Shown: positions 9,973-61,793 of the stretch, one piece after another | Numbering within the stretch: position 1 is the stretch's first letter | Layout of the letters: the number at the start of each line of letters is the position of its first letter | Assembly: GCF_003856835.1 (NCBI RefSeq) | Contig: NZ_CP034145.1 | Coordinates: 496,001 to 560,000 of the forward strand | Reading direction: 5' to 3' | From: Haloplanus aerogenes | Lineage (GTDB): Archaea; Halobacteriota; Halobacteria; Halobacteriales; Haloferacaceae | DNA length: 64,000 nt | Position numbers and translations under genes: made by a program | Notes under the pieces: generated by a model | Database searches by the model: none | Told to the model about the DNA's origin: nothing | The model's input: only the letters and a program-made list of their open reading frames with translations

Positions 9973-10011
9973 CGGCGAAAGGCGTTTCCCCGCACCGCCC
10001 CAACCGCCGCC

Positions 10012-53966: not shown

Positions 53967-55718
53967 ATGACCGAGTACTTCGAGGTCCACGCGCGGGACG
54001 GGGCCGCCCGCGTGGGCGAACTTCGCCTGCGCGACCCCGTCATCACGCCCGCCGTCGCCGACGACTTCGTCGTCGACACCGGAAGCCTGTGGGCCGCCGA
54101 CTGCGACCTCCCCGAGGGGAGCGAGGCCGAACTGACGGTCCTCCCGCACCGCTCCTTCCCCACCGGAACCGACCCGGCCGTCCAGGAGTCATTCGCCGTC
54201 GACTACCCCAATGTGGACTACCCTAGCGCCGGCGTCGTCACCGGCCAGACCGCCGGCAACTACGGCTGTGACGCCTACGTCCTCGCCACCGCCACGGGTG
54301 TCGTCGGTCACGGCGAGTCCTTCCGCGACGAGGTGATCGCCGTCCGCGAGGCGGTTCCGCCGGACACCGCGCTCTATCTCGCCGGCGTCGCCACGCCCGC
54401 CAACGTCGCCACCCTCGTCGCCGCCGGGGTGGATCTGGTCGACACCAAACTCGCTCGCGTGAAGGGCCGACAGGGCATCTATCTCACTACCGAGGGCGAG
54501 TACCACCTCGACGAACTCCACGAACTCCCCGAGGCGTTCCCCTCCGACCCACCGCTTTCCGAGTTCACGCGCGAAGACTGCGTGTCCCACAACGTCGCGG
54601 CCCTCGAATCGGCGCTCGGGACGGTCCGGACCCGCATCCGTCGGGGTCGCCTCCGCGACTATCTGGAGGGGCAGGCCCGTCACGAGAACTGGCTGACCGC
54701 GACGTTCCGCGAGTTCGATGGGGAGTACCGGTATCTGGAGCAGCGGACACCCGTCGTCCGCGATACGGAACTCAGCGCCGCGAGCGAGGACACCCTCCGC
54801 CGGGTGGAGATTCAGCGCTTCACGGACCGCGTGACCTCCCGCTACCGCAACCGCTTTTCGAATCCGCTCGTCCTCGTCCCGTGTTCGGCTCGCAAGCCCT
54901 ACAGCGACTCCCAGAGCCACGCGCAGTTCCACCGCGCCATCAACTACCGGGGCCACCTCGCCTCCATCACGTCGCCTATCGGTGTCGTCCCGCAGGAACT
55001 GGAGTGTACCTACCCCGCCCAGCACTACGACGCCGTCGTCACCGGTCACTGGACGGAAGGCGAGAAGGACTTCGTCGCGCGCGTCCTCCAGCGGTATCTG
55101 GAGCGCAACGACTACCCGCGGGTGATCGCACACGTCCCCGGCGAGGGCTACCGCGACATCTGCGAGCGTGTGGCCGAGAACGTCGACGTCCCCTTCGAGT
55201 TCACCGTCGAGGACCACCCCACCACCTCCGAGTCGCTGTCGAACCTCTCCGACGCCCTCGCGGGCGAACTCAAGTATTCGAAGCGGGAGCGCCAGCACAA
55301 CACGGTCCGCGCCATCGCGGACTACCAGTTCGGCCCCGGCGCGGGCGACGACCTCTTTCCCGACTTGCAGACGACGAGTCGCCACCCCAAGTTGCAGGTG
55401 CGGGACGGTTCGGGGACGCAACTCGCGGCGCAGGTGCCCCAGTACGGCGTCCTCTCCTTTACGCTCGCGGGCGCCCGCCACTGGGCGGAGAGCGACGCCC
55501 CGACCAAGCGGGTCGAGATCGATTCGTTCGTCCCCCACGGGAGCGTCCTCGCCCCGGGCGTCGTCGACGCGAGTGCGGACATCCGCGCCGGCGACGAGGT
55601 GGTCGTCGAGGGACCGGTCGCCTTCGGCGTCGGCCGCGCCGAGATGAGCGGCCCGGAGATGCGCGACAGTACGCGTGGCGTCGCCGTCGAGGTGCGTCAC
55701 GTGGAGGACAACGCTTAA
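53967..55718 (+). CDS. arcS: Archaeosine synthase subunit ArcS
   Basis: 583 aa. ArcS adds the amidine group (lysine-dependent, with a radical-SAM partner in some archaea) that turns preQ0-15 into archaeosine. The N-terminal half is TGT-like; the central part holds a LVLVPCSARKPYSDSQSH motif with the proposed catalytic Cys/Lys; the C-terminus (about 500-583) is a PUA RNA-binding domain (RVEIDSFVPHGSVLAPGV, EVVVEGPVAFGVGRAEMSG). Length is typical. It pairs functionally with tgtA upstream. ATG at 53967. Confidence 0.93.
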   Translation: MTEYFEVHARDGAARVGELRLRDPVITPAVADDFVVDTGSLWAADCDLPEGSEAELTVLPHRSFPTGTDPAVQESFAVDYPNVDYPSAGVVTGQTAGNYGCDAYVLATATGVVGHGESFRDEVIAVREAVPPDTALYLAGVATPANVATLVAAGVDLVDTKLARVKGRQGIYLTTEGEYHLDELHELPEAFPSDPPLSEFTREDCVSHNVAALESALGTVRTRIRRGRLRDYLEGQARHENWLTATFREFDGEYRYLEQRTPVVRDTELSAASEDTLRRVEIQRFTDRVTSRYRNRFSNPLVLVPCSARKPYSDSQSHAQFHRAINYRGHLASITSPIGVVPQELECTYPAQHYDAVVTGHWTEGEKDFVARVLQRYLERNDYPRVIAHVPGEGYRDICERVAENVDVPFEFTVEDHPTTSESLSNLSDALAGELKYSKRERQHNTVRAIADYQFGPGAGDDLFPDLQTTSRHPKLQVRDGSGTQLAAQVPQYGVLSFTLAGARHWAESDAPTKRVEIDSFVPHGSVLAPGVVDASADIRAGDEVVVEGPVAFGVGRAEMSGPEMRDSTRGVAVEVRHVEDNA

Positions 55719-55743: not shown

Positions 55744-57579
55744 ATGCCATCGCCCGGCCGGCGCGACGTGATTCGGGTCGACCTCTCGGCAGGGACTGTC
55801 GCCCGCGAGCGCGTCCCCGCGGACTGGCGACACGACTTCCTCGGCGGCAAGGGCCTCGGCGCCCGCTATCTCTACGAGGAACTCGACGCGGGGACCGACC
55901 CGCTCGGCCCGGCCAACCGCCTCGCTTTCTTCATCGGCCCGCTCTCGGGCTACCTGCCCGCCGAGTCGCGCTACGCCGCCGTCACCAAGTCGCCGCTGAC
56001 GGGCGCCTTCCTCGACTCCTACAGCGGCGGCTCCTTCGCCGACGCCCTCGCCGGCGCCCTCCCCGACGCCTTCGGCCTGTTGATCGAGGGGGCGGCCGAC
56101 GACCCCGTTCGCCTCACTGTCGCCGACGGCGAGGCACGACTCCACGACGCGACCGACCTCTGGGGCGCCGACGCCGCCGAGGTCGACGCCGCCCTCGACG
56201 GCGCCGTCGCCTGTATCGGGCCGGCCGGCGAGAACGAAGTAGCGTACGCCACCATCGCCTCCGACGGCGGCGACCACCACGCCGGTCGCGGCGGCGCCGG
56301 CGCGGTGATGGGTGCGAAACGGCTGAAGGCCGTCGCCGTCCGCGGCGACCCGCCGGAACCGACCGGGGAACTCGCCGCCCTCCGCGACCGGTACGACGAC
56401 GCCTACCGCGACGACGACACCGGCCGCTGGCAGGCCGCCGGCGAGACGGTCGAGAGCGTCGACTTCGCCAACGAGGTGGGCGTCCTCTCCACTCGGGGCT
56501 GGCAGGGCGGCCAGTTCGACGACGCCGGCGACATCGGCGTCGAGGCGGTGCGCGAGGCCGCCACCGGTCGGGAGAACGAGGACGACGCCGTCCCCGGCGG
56601 TTTCCGCGTCGACACCGAAGACGGCGAGTCCGTCCCTCGTGGCGGCACGCTGATGTCGCTCGGCGCCGGCCTCGGCATCGACGACTTCGACGACGTGGCG
56701 CGTCTCGGCGCGACCTGTGATCTGCTCGGGATGGACGCGATCAGCGCCGGCAACGCCGTCGCGTGGGCGATGCGGGCGACCGACGTGGCCGCCATCGACG
56801 CCGACCTCGAGTTCGGCGACGCCGACGCAGCCGAGCGGTTACTGGCGGCCATCGCCGCCCGGTCCTCCGACCTCGGTGACACGCTGGCCGACGGCGTCGA
56901 CGCGGCGCAGGACCGGTACGGCGCGGGGGCGGTCCCGACGGTGAAGTCGATGGAACTCCCCGCCTACGACCCCCGAGGCGCCGCGGGGATGGCACTGGCG
57001 TACGCCACGAGCGACCGCGGTGGGTGTCACCGCCGCGCTCGGCCGGTCGAGCGCGAGGCGTTCGCCCGCGACGAGTGGACCGACGCCGACCGCGTCACGA
57101 CGGTCATCGGCGCCCAGAACGTCCGGTCGACGCTCTGGAGCCTCGTCGTCGACGATTTCGCTGGCGAGACCATGTGGGAGGATCTCGGCGCCGAGTGGTT
57201 GCAGGCGGTGGGGCTGGACCACGACCGCGAGTCGCTGGCGACGCTCGGCGAACGCGTCTGGACGCTCGTCCGCCTGTTCAACGTCCGCGAGGGCTTCGAC
57301 CGGTCGGACGACTCGCTGCCGGACGTGTTCGAGGAACCGATGCCCGACGGCCCGGCCGCCGGCCGCACCGTCGACCGCGAGGCGTTCGAGACGATGCTCG
57401 ACGCCTACTACGCGGCGCGGGGCTGGGCGGCCGACGGCCGTCCCACGCCAGCGACGGTCGACCGCCTCGGTCTCGCCGCCCTGATCGACGACGAGACGCC
57501 GCTCGGCGCGTCGCCGGCCGTCGACCCCGTCGAACACGACGGCTGTGAGCAGGAGTACGGCCACGGACACGGCTCGTGA
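55744..57579 (+). CDS. Aldehyde ferredoxin oxidoreductase homologue without cluster ligands
   Basis: 611 aa, aligning over the full length with tungsten AORs: FLGGKGLGARYLYEEL, RLAFFIGPLSG, TKSPLTGAFLDSYSGG, LGMDAISAGNAVAWAM and NVREGFDR. The usual Cys-x2-Cys-x3-Cys that binds the [4Fe-4S] cluster is replaced by a polar/Gly stretch around residues 278-290, and the fourth Cys (near LWSLVVDDF, about 465) is also missing. Only four Cys occur in the protein (157, 325, 428 and 601). Pterin-binding positions look kept. Activity, if any, must work without the cluster. ATG at 55744. Confidence 0.85.
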   Translation: MPSPGRRDVIRVDLSAGTVARERVPADWRHDFLGGKGLGARYLYEELDAGTDPLGPANRLAFFIGPLSGYLPAESRYAAVTKSPLTGAFLDSYSGGSFADALAGALPDAFGLLIEGAADDPVRLTVADGEARLHDATDLWGADAAEVDAALDGAVACIGPAGENEVAYATIASDGGDHHAGRGGAGAVMGAKRLKAVAVRGDPPEPTGELAALRDRYDDAYRDDDTGRWQAAGETVESVDFANEVGVLSTRGWQGGQFDDAGDIGVEAVREAATGRENEDDAVPGGFRVDTEDGESVPRGGTLMSLGAGLGIDDFDDVARLGATCDLLGMDAISAGNAVAWAMRATDVAAIDADLEFGDADAAERLLAAIAARSSDLGDTLADGVDAAQDRYGAGAVPTVKSMELPAYDPRGAAGMALAYATSDRGGCHRRARPVEREAFARDEWTDADRVTTVIGAQNVRSTLWSLVVDDFAGETMWEDLGAEWLQAVGLDHDRESLATLGERVWTLVRLFNVREGFDRSDDSLPDVFEEPMPDGPAAGRTVDREAFETMLDAYYAARGWAADGRPTPATVDRLGLAALIDDETPLGASPAVDPVEHDGCEQEYGHGHGS

Positions 57580-57800: not shown

Positions 57801-59276
57801 TCACGCACGCTGGAGTTGCACCTTGAAGATCGCTCCCTTTGGATCGTTATCTTCGATCCAGACGTCGCCGCCGAACTCGTCGACGAGTCGCTTCACGAGA
57901 TACAGGCCGATACCCGTGCCTGCGCTGTCGAGGTTCTTCTCGCCTTTCCCGAACACGGTCTCTTTCTGCGAGTCCGGAATTCCCGGACCGTCGTCGGCGA
58001 CGCTGATGATCACGGACTCCTCGGTTCGGTCGGCGTCGATCGTGACTGTCGGCGTCTCCCCGTCGTTGTGTTGGACTGCGTTGTTCAACAGGTTCCGGAT
58101 CACGGAGGAGAGGAGTTCGTTCGCTCGCACCTCGATCTCCGAAAGGTCTGCTTCCAGGCGAAACTCCGCTTCGGGATACGTCTCCCGTCGCGTGACGAGT
58201 TCGTTGCGAACGGCGTCGGAGAGCGAAACGGCGTGGAGTTCAGCCGAACTACTGCCGGAGATGATCTCGACGTAGTCCCGGGAAATCTCCGTGAGTTCGG
58301 TCACGTGGTGACTGGTCTCCTGTATTCGATCGAGAATCTCCTCGCTGTCCTCGTCTACGTGTTCGGGAAGCGTCTCCACCCATCCCGTGATGACGTTCAT
58401 GTCGTTGCGGATATCGTGACGAATGACGCGGTTGAGAACTTCCAGTTGTTCGGTTCGTTTACGCAACTCTTGCTCTCGAACCCGTCGATCCGAGATGTCG
58501 CGGAAAACGCCGATGAATCGAGGATCGTCCCGGTACGCGAACCGACTGGCGTTGATTTCGACCGGGACGTGCTCCCCCTCGGCGGTGACGACGTGGATAT
58601 CCGAGCCGTCGGGCAGTTTCGTCTCGACCGCCTCGTCAGCGGCCACGTGCCCCTCAAACAGTTCGGCGTATTGATCGCGATTTTCGTCCGGATGGAGGCT
58701 CGTCTGATCCCTGCCGAGGATATCCTCTCTGGGACGATCGAGCAACTGTTCGGCGGTTCTGTTCGCATCGATGATCTCGCCCGTCGCGATCCGCGCGACG
58801 AAGATTGCGTCGGGGACGGCGTCGAGGAGGGAACGGTATCGCTGTCGATCCTGCTCGGTGAGCCGTTGCTGCTGGCGTTGGAATCCATCGTAGATGCCGA
58901 TGAGCACGCCACCGAGACCGCCCGTCGTCAACAGGTTCAGCAACACGAACGGGAGGTGTGTCGTGATTATTCGAGAACCCTCCGCGAACTGGTAGGCGAG
59001 CATCGCGGCGGTGACGATCGCCATGGCCACGATGCCACTCACGGTCCACGCAGTGACGCGAGGCAGAAATTCGCCGTTCAGGTCGCTTCGATACACCCAG
59101 TACCCGGCCGTGGTGAGTCCGCTCGCCAACACCATCGGAAAGAACACACCCAGCGCGTACGCGAGCGGTCCCTCCTCTCTGAGGAGGTGTGGCACGTTCG
59201 CGAGCAACAGGACGAGTCCGATCGCACAGATCGTCCCTGCCCACACGAGGCGCTGACTGGCGCTTTCAGATCGCAT
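57801..59276 (-). CDS. Membrane PAS-domain histidine kinase
   Basis: 491 aa. Four transmembrane helices (about residues 9-120), a short linker, a PAS domain (about 145-265, LLDAVPDAIFVARIATGEIIDANRTA), the phosphoacceptor box VIRHDIRNDMNVI (about 290) and an ATPase domain with N box LNNAVQHND, GPGIP and GTGIGLYLVKRLV. No receiver domain is present. It shares the stop/start junction with the MEDS kinase (1-nt overlap), so the pair is cotranscribed. Confidence 0.88.
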   Translation of the reverse strand: MRSESASQRLVWAGTICAIGLVLLLANVPHLLREEGPLAYALGVFFPMVLASGLTTAGYWVYRSDLNGEFLPRVTAWTVSGIVAMAIVTAAMLAYQFAEGSRIITTHLPFVLLNLLTTGGLGGVLIGIYDGFQRQQQRLTEQDRQRYRSLLDAVPDAIFVARIATGEIIDANRTAEQLLDRPREDILGRDQTSLHPDENRDQYAELFEGHVAADEAVETKLPDGSDIHVVTAEGEHVPVEINASRFAYRDDPRFIGVFRDISDRRVREQELRKRTEQLEVLNRVIRHDIRNDMNVITGWVETLPEHVDEDSEEILDRIQETSHHVTELTEISRDYVEIISGSSSAELHAVSLSDAVRNELVTRRETYPEAEFRLEADLSEIEVRANELLSSVIRNLLNNAVQHNDGETPTVTIDADRTEESVIISVADDGPGIPDSQKETVFGKGEKNLDSAGTGIGLYLVKRLVDEFGGDVWIEDNDPKGAIFKVQLQRA

Positions 59277-60670
59277 TAGACTGAGTCCACCGCTGATTCG
59301 GCCTGTGGGAGACGGATCGTCACGATCGGTCCGTGGGGGTCGTTTTCGCGGAACCGGAGTTCGCCGCGAGAGCGCGTCACCAGCCAGTGGGCGATCCAGA
59401 GGTCGACGCGACTCCCGTGGTACAGCGGATCGATCTCTCGCTCTCCCGTGAGCGTCTTCACGTCCATCTCCGAAATTCCCTGCCCGTTGTCGGCAATATC
59501 GAGGTCGACGGCTCCTGGCTCCCTGCGCGTCACCGTGACTTCGACCTCACAGGTTTCTTTCCGATTGAGTTTCACCGTGTTCTCGATGAGTTCGTCCAGC
59601 GCCGTTCCGAACTGATCGGCACACAGCGCACACACGTCTTCGACCTCGGTTTCGAACCGAAAGGTCGAGTCGGGGTACCGACTTCGGAACGCGTCGAGGT
59701 GTGTCTCGACCAGTCGCGGTAAATCCGTCGGCGTGACGGACGACTGGGCCTGGATGATTTGCTCGGCTGTCCCGGCCTTTTCGCACAGGTCGATCAGCTC
59801 GTTGCCGACGTCGACGATCTTCGCTGCCCGCTCTCGTTCTTCGCCAGAGAGCGTTTCCTCTAGCTCTTCGGCCAGTCCCTGGATCAGGTTCGTGTCGTTC
59901 CGGAGCCGGTGTCGGAGCACCGTCGTGAGGATGTCGAGCTGGTCCTCCCGATTTTGCAGGTCACGCTTCATCCGCTCGCGTTCTGCGATGTTCGTCAGCC
60001 ACCGCTCGAGATCTGCCTCCGCGTCCGGATCCAGGTACTCGTCCGGAGGAACGTAATAGAAGTTCTCCGCCACGGTGTACCCGTACACCAGATCGGGGTG
60101 TGTCCTGATCACCTCGCGGAGAACCTCCGGACTGAACCGCTCGTAGTTGTACTGGCAGATGGCGAGACAATCGTGCGCATCGAGGAAGTCGTTCAATCTG
60201 GCTTCGTACTCGAGCAGGGCGTCGGTTCCTGGATCGCCGCCCAGTTGCCACGTCATTTCGCCGGTCGCCCGTAATGCGGAATAGCCTGCCGCTTTGGCCT
60301 TCTCGACCGCCTCGTGCAGGAACTCGACCATCTCGTCAGGGTCGAAATAGCCGCCCTGAAGGTAGGTTTCGGACGGGTCCGCGATTTCGAGGTCGCCCGT
60401 CGCTAGCGCATCCTGAACGTCGATCCCGTACGTGGATGCGGCTTCGATCACGTCCTCTGCCGCGTTGTCGTCGGTGATGTAGATACACTTCTCGTTGTGT
60501 GCGAGTCCAGTGGCGATGAAGGGAATCGCAGCGTCGAACTGTTCTTCCCGTGTCTTGTAGATCAGGGCGAGGTGATCGTGTGTTTCGAGTGATCGCAACG
60601 CCTCGATGAGAGCGAGTTTGTCTTGTCGTCGGAGGAATTCGATATCCTCCCTGTCCGACGCCGTATCCAT
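59276..60670 (-). CDS. MEDS-domain histidine kinase
   Basis: 464 aa, soluble. Residues about 30-205 are a MEDS/DcmR-like sensor (HDHLALIYKTREEQFDAAIPFI; CIYITDDN; GYFDPDEMVEFLHE), a domain linked to C1 or redox sensing in methanogens and methylotrophs. Phosphoacceptor box VLRHRLRNDTNLI (about 250) and ATPase domain follow. The G2 box is unusual (HGSRVDLWIAHWLV instead of the expected G-x-G-L-G-L), so ATP binding may be weakened. Its start is ATG 60670 with an AT-rich upstream region. Confidence 0.87.
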   Translation of the reverse strand: MDTASDREDIEFLRRQDKLALIEALRSLETHDHLALIYKTREEQFDAAIPFIATGLAHNEKCIYITDDNAAEDVIEAASTYGIDVQDALATGDLEIADPSETYLQGGYFDPDEMVEFLHEAVEKAKAAGYSALRATGEMTWQLGGDPGTDALLEYEARLNDFLDAHDCLAICQYNYERFSPEVLREVIRTHPDLVYGYTVAENFYYVPPDEYLDPDAEADLERWLTNIAERERMKRDLQNREDQLDILTTVLRHRLRNDTNLIQGLAEELEETLSGEERERAAKIVDVGNELIDLCEKAGTAEQIIQAQSSVTPTDLPRLVETHLDAFRSRYPDSTFRFETEVEDVCALCADQFGTALDELIENTVKLNRKETCEVEVTVTRREPGAVDLDIADNGQGISEMDVKTLTGEREIDPLYHGSRVDLWIAHWLVTRSRGELRFRENDPHGPIVTIRLPQAESAVDSV

Positions 60671-61450: not shown

Positions 61451-61508
61451 GGTAGCCGTTCCGCACGCTGTCGCGTCCCTTTTTACGCTGGCGCACTTGA
61501 CGACTGAC

Positions 61509-61793
61509 ATGGATCTGCAACTGCGATTTTTCGCGACGTTCCGCGAGGCGGTCGGGCAGAAGACCCTCGAACACGGGTTCGAGGACGGTGCGACCGTCGG
61601 GGACGTTCTCCTGACCCTCGAGTCCGAGTACAACGGCCTCGAGGGCCAACTGCTGGACGATCAGGGAGAACTGCAGCCGAATCTCAATATCCTGAAAAAC
61701 GGGCGGGAAGTGCTCCACATGGAGGGGCCGGAGACGGTGATGGAAGACGGCGATACGCTGTCGATATTCCCACCGGTGGCAGGCGGCGCATGA
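61509..61793 (+). CDS. SAMP/MoaD ubiquitin-like sulfur carrier
   Basis: 94 aa ubiquitin-fold protein: MDLQLRFFATFREAVGQK start, GATVGDVLLTLESEY and DGDTLSIFPPVAGGA end. It would carry sulfur for molybdopterin synthesis or be attached to proteins as an archaeal modifier (SAMP3-like). The diglycine is followed by one extra Ala (GGA then stop), so the active GG end must be trimmed or this member is altered. Its stop overlaps the next start (ATGA). Confidence 0.82.
   Translation: MDLQLRFFATFREAVGQKTLEHGFEDGATVGDVLLTLESEYNGLEGQLLDDQGELQPNLNILKNGREVLHMEGPETVMEDGDTLSIFPPVAGGA

Follow-up and report, generated by a model that had tools for sequence, protein, structure and literature searches.

The window, a stretch of 64,000 nucleotides of Haloplanus aerogenes DNA, encodes at positions 55744-57579 of the forward strand a 611-residue, full-length homologue of aldehyde ferredoxin oxidoreductase (AOR). 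As both the iron-sulfur cluster and the catalytic acid have been lost and the gene travels with formate dehydrogenase (FDH) genes, the protein is more likely a helper of FDH than an aldehyde-oxidising enzyme. The reading that we favour, tentatively and at slightly below even chances, is that of a redox-dead haloarchaeal AOR paralogue, repurposed as an FDH-linked factor that would handle the tungsten or molybdenum (W/Mo) cofactor in trans.

An AOR homologue lacking every cluster ligand

The Pfam scan of the window protein returned the AFOR domains only, AFOR_N (6.6e-65) and AFOR_C (3.9e-90), both far over their cut-offs and together covering residues 9-577, with no FdhD domain (PF02634). The top sequence matches in the PDB, 9mqx (2e-86) and 1aor (1.4e-85), ran from end to end, thus confirming an alignment with the tungsten AORs over the whole length that had first been noticed from the letters alone (the sequence-only reading). 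An AlphaFold2 model of the protein without cofactor, calculated from an input alignment of the window protein and the proteins from the retrieved loci, reached a pLDDT of 92.5 and a pTM of 0.93. VIA-align superimposed this model on 1b25 with a Z score of 49.5 (580 aligned residues, rmsd 2.1) and on 1aor with a Z score of 48.9 (571 aligned residues, rmsd 2.0), and Foldseek and VIA found nothing above noise except members of the AOR/WOR family. By both domains and by its fold the window protein therefore belongs to the AOR/WOR family by descent, and in the model the AOR fold is intact.

Alignment with 1aor placed D280, V283, F287 and D470 of the window protein at the cluster ligands Cys288, Cys291, Cys295 and Cys494. 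The Cys-x2-Cys-x3-Cys segment is replaced by DDAVPGGF (residues 280-287; 56581-56604, forward strand), a replacement conserved in 116 orthologues; in the AlphaFold2 model the ex-cluster region is a beta hairpin, with DDAVPGGF at its start. None of the four [4Fe-4S] ligands (CxxCx3C and the distal Cys) is kept in the window protein or in the 116 full-length orthologues, and because every ligand is missing in all of these a sequencing error whose correction would restore the motif was ruled out.

The window protein contains exactly four cysteines, C157, C325, C428 and C601. Since C601 lies in a tail with pLDDT below 50, C325 and C428 occupy sites that are also Cys in many cluster-bearing AORs, and the C-x2-C-x3-C motif is absent from the protein, the cluster has not simply been moved; an arrangement of displaced cysteines still gathered in space was ruled out, as three of the four are conserved positions, the last is in the disordered tail and no motif is left. 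These results bear out the sequence-only reading, according to which all cluster cysteines had been replaced, three of them within a DDAVPGGF-like stretch, the fourth was gone, and the only four cysteines present stood at none of the required places. Several orthologues (L049, L052, L061, L062, L063 and L128) carry acidic low-complexity inserts exactly at the ex-cluster loop, which is thus a permissive one now.

The pterin contacts and the catalytic pocket

The AOR/WOR enzymes bind W/Mo-bis-pterin together with a bridging Mg, and the DxxGL(C/D) motif of the 1aor structure is one that we take to be a pterin contact. The first pterin motif, DxxG(L/M)D, is kept in the window protein as D326, G329 and D331 within CDLLGMD (residues 325-331; 56716-56736, forward strand), whereas the second, DxxGLC, has become WSLVVD within LWSLVVDDF (residues 464-472; 57133-57159, forward strand), where W465 and D470 replace the motif and the fourth Cys. 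In P. furiosus AOR (PfAOR) numbering, as used in PMC13328260 and PMC12096430, the equivalents of Arg76 (R76), Thr243 (T235), Tyr427 (Y408) and His448 (H429) are retained, the last two in a segment from Y408 to R431 (56965-57036, forward strand) that also holds the clade-specific R430. The equivalent of Tyr452 is lost, and Glu311, Tyr312 and Glu313 align with R299, G300 and G301, the Pro310-Glu311-Tyr312-Glu313 block being replaced by PRGG (residues 298-301; 56635-56646, forward strand). The earlier impression of intact pterin contacts thus holds for the first motif and for R76, T235, Y408 and H429, and fails for the second motif and the Glu311/Tyr312/Glu313 block.

Across the window protein and the 116 orthologues the second-shell Thr, Tyr and His are kept and Glu313 is replaced by Gly, Ala or Ser; among the orthologues the equivalents of Thr243, Tyr427 and His448 and the first pterin motif are nearly invariant. 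D470, W465 and G300 are invariant in the cluster-less orthologues and R299 is found in 99% of them. In the cysteine-bearing relatives Cys stands at the site of D470, either an aromatic residue or Asp at that of W465, Tyr or Phe at that of G300, and Glu at that of R299. Judging from these alignments, the new invariant residues appear to rebuild the pocket. The proposed AOR mechanisms make use of Glu313 (PMC12727526, PMC12096430), and proton exchange in them relies on a conserved Glu and His (PMC12727526); with Glu313 lost, ordinary aldehyde oxidation by the window protein would be unlikely.

A single clade under purifying selection

Clear orthologues were found in 205 of 392 genomes of the haloarchaeal order, weak matches and matches to the cysteine-bearing sister clade being set aside, and a scan of named genomes gave 80 loci, nearly all of them haloarchaeal. 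When the motif columns were removed before tree building, the cluster-less proteins, examined through the 116 full-length orthologues, were monophyletic with an SH-aLRT of 100. The question of common origin raised by the sequence-only reading was thus answered by one clade and a single change, the loss of the cluster. All cluster ligands and Glu313 are kept in the haloarchaeal sister clade, at 42-44% identity, as well as in one Hadesarchaea protein and one Thermoproteota protein. Position 489 is Trp even in the cluster-bearing Hadesarchaea protein, so the alteration of the second pterin motif probably began ahead of the cluster loss.

The dN/dS of the window gene against its congeners was 0.19-0.22, demonstrating purifying selection on the AOR-like gene. 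Decay of the gene, or a sequencing artefact, might be suspected from a few orthologues that are split into two open frames, and is refuted by the occurrence of orthologues in roughly every second genome sampled from the order, by the dN/dS of about 0.2, by the invariance of the clade-specific residues and by the high-confidence fold, so that we grant it next to no probability. The earlier statement that frame and coding quality are intact and that this is no decayed pseudogene agrees with the selection values, the orthologues and the modelled fold. The split genes, at loci L133 and L137, are interrupted near locus position 10001, by either a frameshift error or recent decay.

Linkage to formate dehydrogenase genes

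Gene neighbourhoods were compared at 81 loci, 76 of them cluster-less and 5 cysteine-bearing, using gene maps filtered by composition against reverse-strand shadow ORFs. An FDH alpha gene lies within 10 kb of the AOR-like gene at 52 of the 76 cluster-less loci, and none was found near the cysteine-bearing relatives (0/5 loci); the cysteine-bearing copy of Haloferax marinum stands beside ABC-transport and aldehyde dehydrogenase-like genes. Other neighbours within 10 kb of the cluster-less genes were YqeC (35 loci), DUF7124 (25), MobA-like (21), TorD-like (21) and NuoF-like (14) genes, and 66 of the 76 loci had at least one FDH or Mo/W-cofactor gene within this distance. Neighbours were identified with NCBIfam and Pfam: a 704-residue FDH scored over the TIGR01591 cut-off and YqeC over that of TIGR03172, and an exported FDH-like protein of 1077 residues had TIGR01591 as its best match, under its cut-off.

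The linked FDH alphas have three architectures (exported, NuoG-fused and FdhF-like), which argues against the AOR-like protein being a subunit of one enzyme, and the linked FDHs also work at different cellular locations and with different electron acceptors. Some FDH loci contain a Zn-dependent formaldehyde-dehydrogenase-like gene as well. At many loci a DUF7124 protein whose N-terminal part holds a DWFW block (L071:11752-12570, L156:2978-3724) and two small proteins are encoded between the AOR-like and FDH genes.

The window genome has YqeC and three FDHs, one of the exported type and two FdhF-like, all of them unlinked to the AOR-like gene. Its exported-type operon remains intact and consists of DUF7124, two small proteins, a TorD-like protein, an HdrA-like protein, FDH alpha and FDH beta; the AOR-like gene, which precedes DUF7124 in relatives, is not part of it. 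As this operon lies 2.1 Mb away, the AOR-like product must act in trans. Directly upstream of the AOR-like gene, ending 25 nt before its start, is an arcS/TgtA2-like gene with DUF5591 and PUA domains by Pfam (53967-55718, forward strand). The adjacency survey found arcS in this place only within the genus and a few relatives; the adjacency is therefore treated as incidental, and a functional tie to archaeosine was rejected. At locus L133 arcS, the AOR-like gene, DUF7124 and FDH genes stand together; most simply, the FDH part would have been relocated in the window genome and the AOR-like gene would have kept its place beside arcS. Downstream, two histidine kinases are encoded on the reverse strand (57801-60670), of which, by Pfam, one contains a PAS domain and the other a MEDS sensory domain; they are followed by a small forward-strand ORF (61497-61793) for what looks by eye like a putative MoaD/SAMP ubiquitin-fold protein.

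Co-occurrence across genomes and absence of FdhD

The distribution of the AOR-like gene was compared with that of FDH in the 392 genomes, as raw counts that ignore kinship. The gene occurs in 106 of the 109 genomes with an exported-type FDH; of the other three, one is incomplete, one is fragmented and the last has the cysteine-bearing sister. YqeC is present in 203 of the 205 AOR-like genomes, likewise as raw counts regardless of kinship, and the two exceptions are incomplete. Taking exported-type and FdhF-like FDHs together, again ignoring kinship, 177 genomes have both FDH and the AOR-like gene, 28 the AOR-like gene only, 26 FDH only and 161 neither. Most of the 99 AOR-like genomes without an exported-type FDH have another FDH type, and only 2 of the 106 genomes without an FDH-like match in the searches carry the AOR-like gene. 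The mid-scoring matches to the FdhF-like query mix NuoG-fused FDHs with other enzymes of the DMSO-reductase family, probably nitrate reductases. Within one genus, the AOR-like-positive G126 has a NuoG-fused FDH 6 kb from the gene, and its AOR-like-negative congeners G284 and G379 are without that FDH. In G155 (locus L039) an FDH-like alpha is accompanied by the cysteine-bearing sister in place of a cluster-less gene. Neighbourhood and co-occurrence together link the AOR-like gene strongly to FDH.

FdhD, characterised as a conserved chaperone and sulfurtransferase dedicated to FDH, is indispensable to the FDH of Methylorubrum (PMC13197769). FdhD (PF02634) was found in none of the 392 genomes of the order, although many encode FDH and the control bacteria and other archaea were positive; a second model, TIGR00129, gave insignificant matches only, in four of ten FDH-bearing genomes. 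As no FdhD is recognisable, the haloarchaeal FDHs must mature either in its absence or by means of a factor too divergent for detection. Linkage and distribution make YqeC and the AOR-like protein candidates for this maturation, and the YqeC linked to haloarchaeal FDH loci (TIGR03172; L076:17277-18008 and orthologues) is a candidate substitute for FdhD in sulfurating the cofactor. A role of the AOR-like protein as the sole replacement of FdhD was weakened by 24 genomes that have an FdhF-like FDH and lack both the AOR-like gene and FdhD. The protein is therefore not needed for every FDH, and these genomes set a real limit to the accessory model.

Proposed role and alternative explanations

The sequence-only reading had left a choice between a cluster-free pterin enzyme with a different electron acceptor and a non-enzymatic descendant. 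The second is favoured, as a conserved and repurposed protein, because of the purifying selection, the single clade with a single loss, the intact fold, the loss of Glu313 and the linkage to FDH and Mo/W-cofactor genes. We infer a carrier mechanism, in which the protein would bind the cofactor, pass it to FDH and act as a partner of YqeC, from its descent from AOR, from a pterin pocket of which half is kept, from the invariant residues that have been remodelled and from the cofactor genes nearby. The half-kept pocket would bind the W/Mo-pterin cofactor or a precursor, which the protein may hold or hand to FDH during maturation, with YqeC and MobA-like proteins at its side, in archaea where no FdhD is recognisable. 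The specific proposal that the redox-dead AOR fold is a carrier or insertion factor loading W/Mo bis-pterin into haloarchaeal FDHs, with YqeC perhaps in charge of sulfuration, and thus an independent solution to FDH maturation, is doubtful.

A cluster-free enzyme would bind W/Mo-bis-pterin and convert a one-carbon or other substrate with the Thr, Tyr and His that remain; its electrons would go straight to a partner (the FDH complex, DUF7124 or a NuoF-like protein), or the reaction would be a non-redox one. The near-invariance of these residues and of the first pterin motif, the formaldehyde-dehydrogenase-like gene in some FDH loci and the capacity of W-pterin enzymes to change chemistry, as in acetylene hydratase and benzoyl-CoA reductase (PMC12096430), all speak for it. 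However, Glu311, Tyr312, Glu313, Tyr452 and the second pterin motif are lost, no electron route is left inside the protein, and the linked FDHs vary in location and acceptor, and we regard such an enzyme as unlikely. With half of the pterin contacts gone the protein may also bind no pterin, and its AOR fold could persist only as the binding surface of a protein that serves FDH as a scaffold, in assembly or in sensing. The acidic inserts at the ex-cluster loop and the FDH linkage are consistent with this, but a pure scaffold would not require the constancy of the kept motif and pocket residues, which renders it rather unlikely. A general store or quality-control protein for the W/Mo cofactor, serving several Mo/W enzymes together with YqeC, would account for the MobA-like neighbours and for a nesting with YqeC (203/205) that is nearly perfect, as compared with that with exported-type FDH (106/205). 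It is the more improbable in view of the near absence of the gene from genomes without an FDH-like match (2/106) and its covariation with FDH within a genus, and we give it a low probability.

Because a widespread, conserved, FDH-tied clade has lost both the entire cluster and its catalytic acid, the name aldehyde ferredoxin oxidoreductase is probably wrong for many of the proteins that bear it, and the clade exposes a gap, namely FDH maturation without FdhD in a large archaeal order.

Comparison with known systems

Reviews of AOR/WOR enzymes describe the residues for the W-pterin and the [4Fe-4S] cluster as highly conserved, with single-ligand variants at most (PMC13328260, PMC12096430). In the open literature that was searched we found no description of a cluster-less AOR clade or of haloarchaeal FDH maturation. 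The closest departures from a full cluster found there, which is not to say that no closer one exists, are two P. furiosus members of the AOR family that both keep a cluster: WOR4, with one ligand altered (Cys to Gly, Fe3S4), and WOR5, with three Cys and one Asp (PMC12096430).

With the AOR/WOR enzymes (P. furiosus AOR, 1aor, and FOR, 1b25; 9mqx; C. autoethanogenum, 9g7j; H. volcanii WOR83, 9q1t) the window protein shares both AFOR domains and the whole fold (Z 48-49.5), together with the first pterin motif, Arg76, Thr243, Tyr427 and His448. It differs from them in lacking the cluster ligands, Glu311, Tyr312, Glu313 and Tyr452 and in the replaced second pterin motif, and its clade is tied to FDH rather than to aldehyde metabolism. 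The closest haloarchaeal relatives, the cysteine-bearing sister clade (L135, L136, L139, L039, L041-L045; 42-44% identity), have LDSYSGG-like and TSDRG(G/A)CH blocks in common with the cluster-less proteins but retain CxxCx3C, the fourth Cys and Glu313 and have no FDH alpha nearby. YqeC, which recurs beside the AOR-like gene and accompanies it phyletically, is an unrelated protein named for selenium-dependent molybdenum hydroxylases. The likeness to FdhD, the cofactor chaperone and sulfurtransferase of FDH, lies only in the proposed accessory role through the cofactor, the two proteins being unrelated in sequence and fold.
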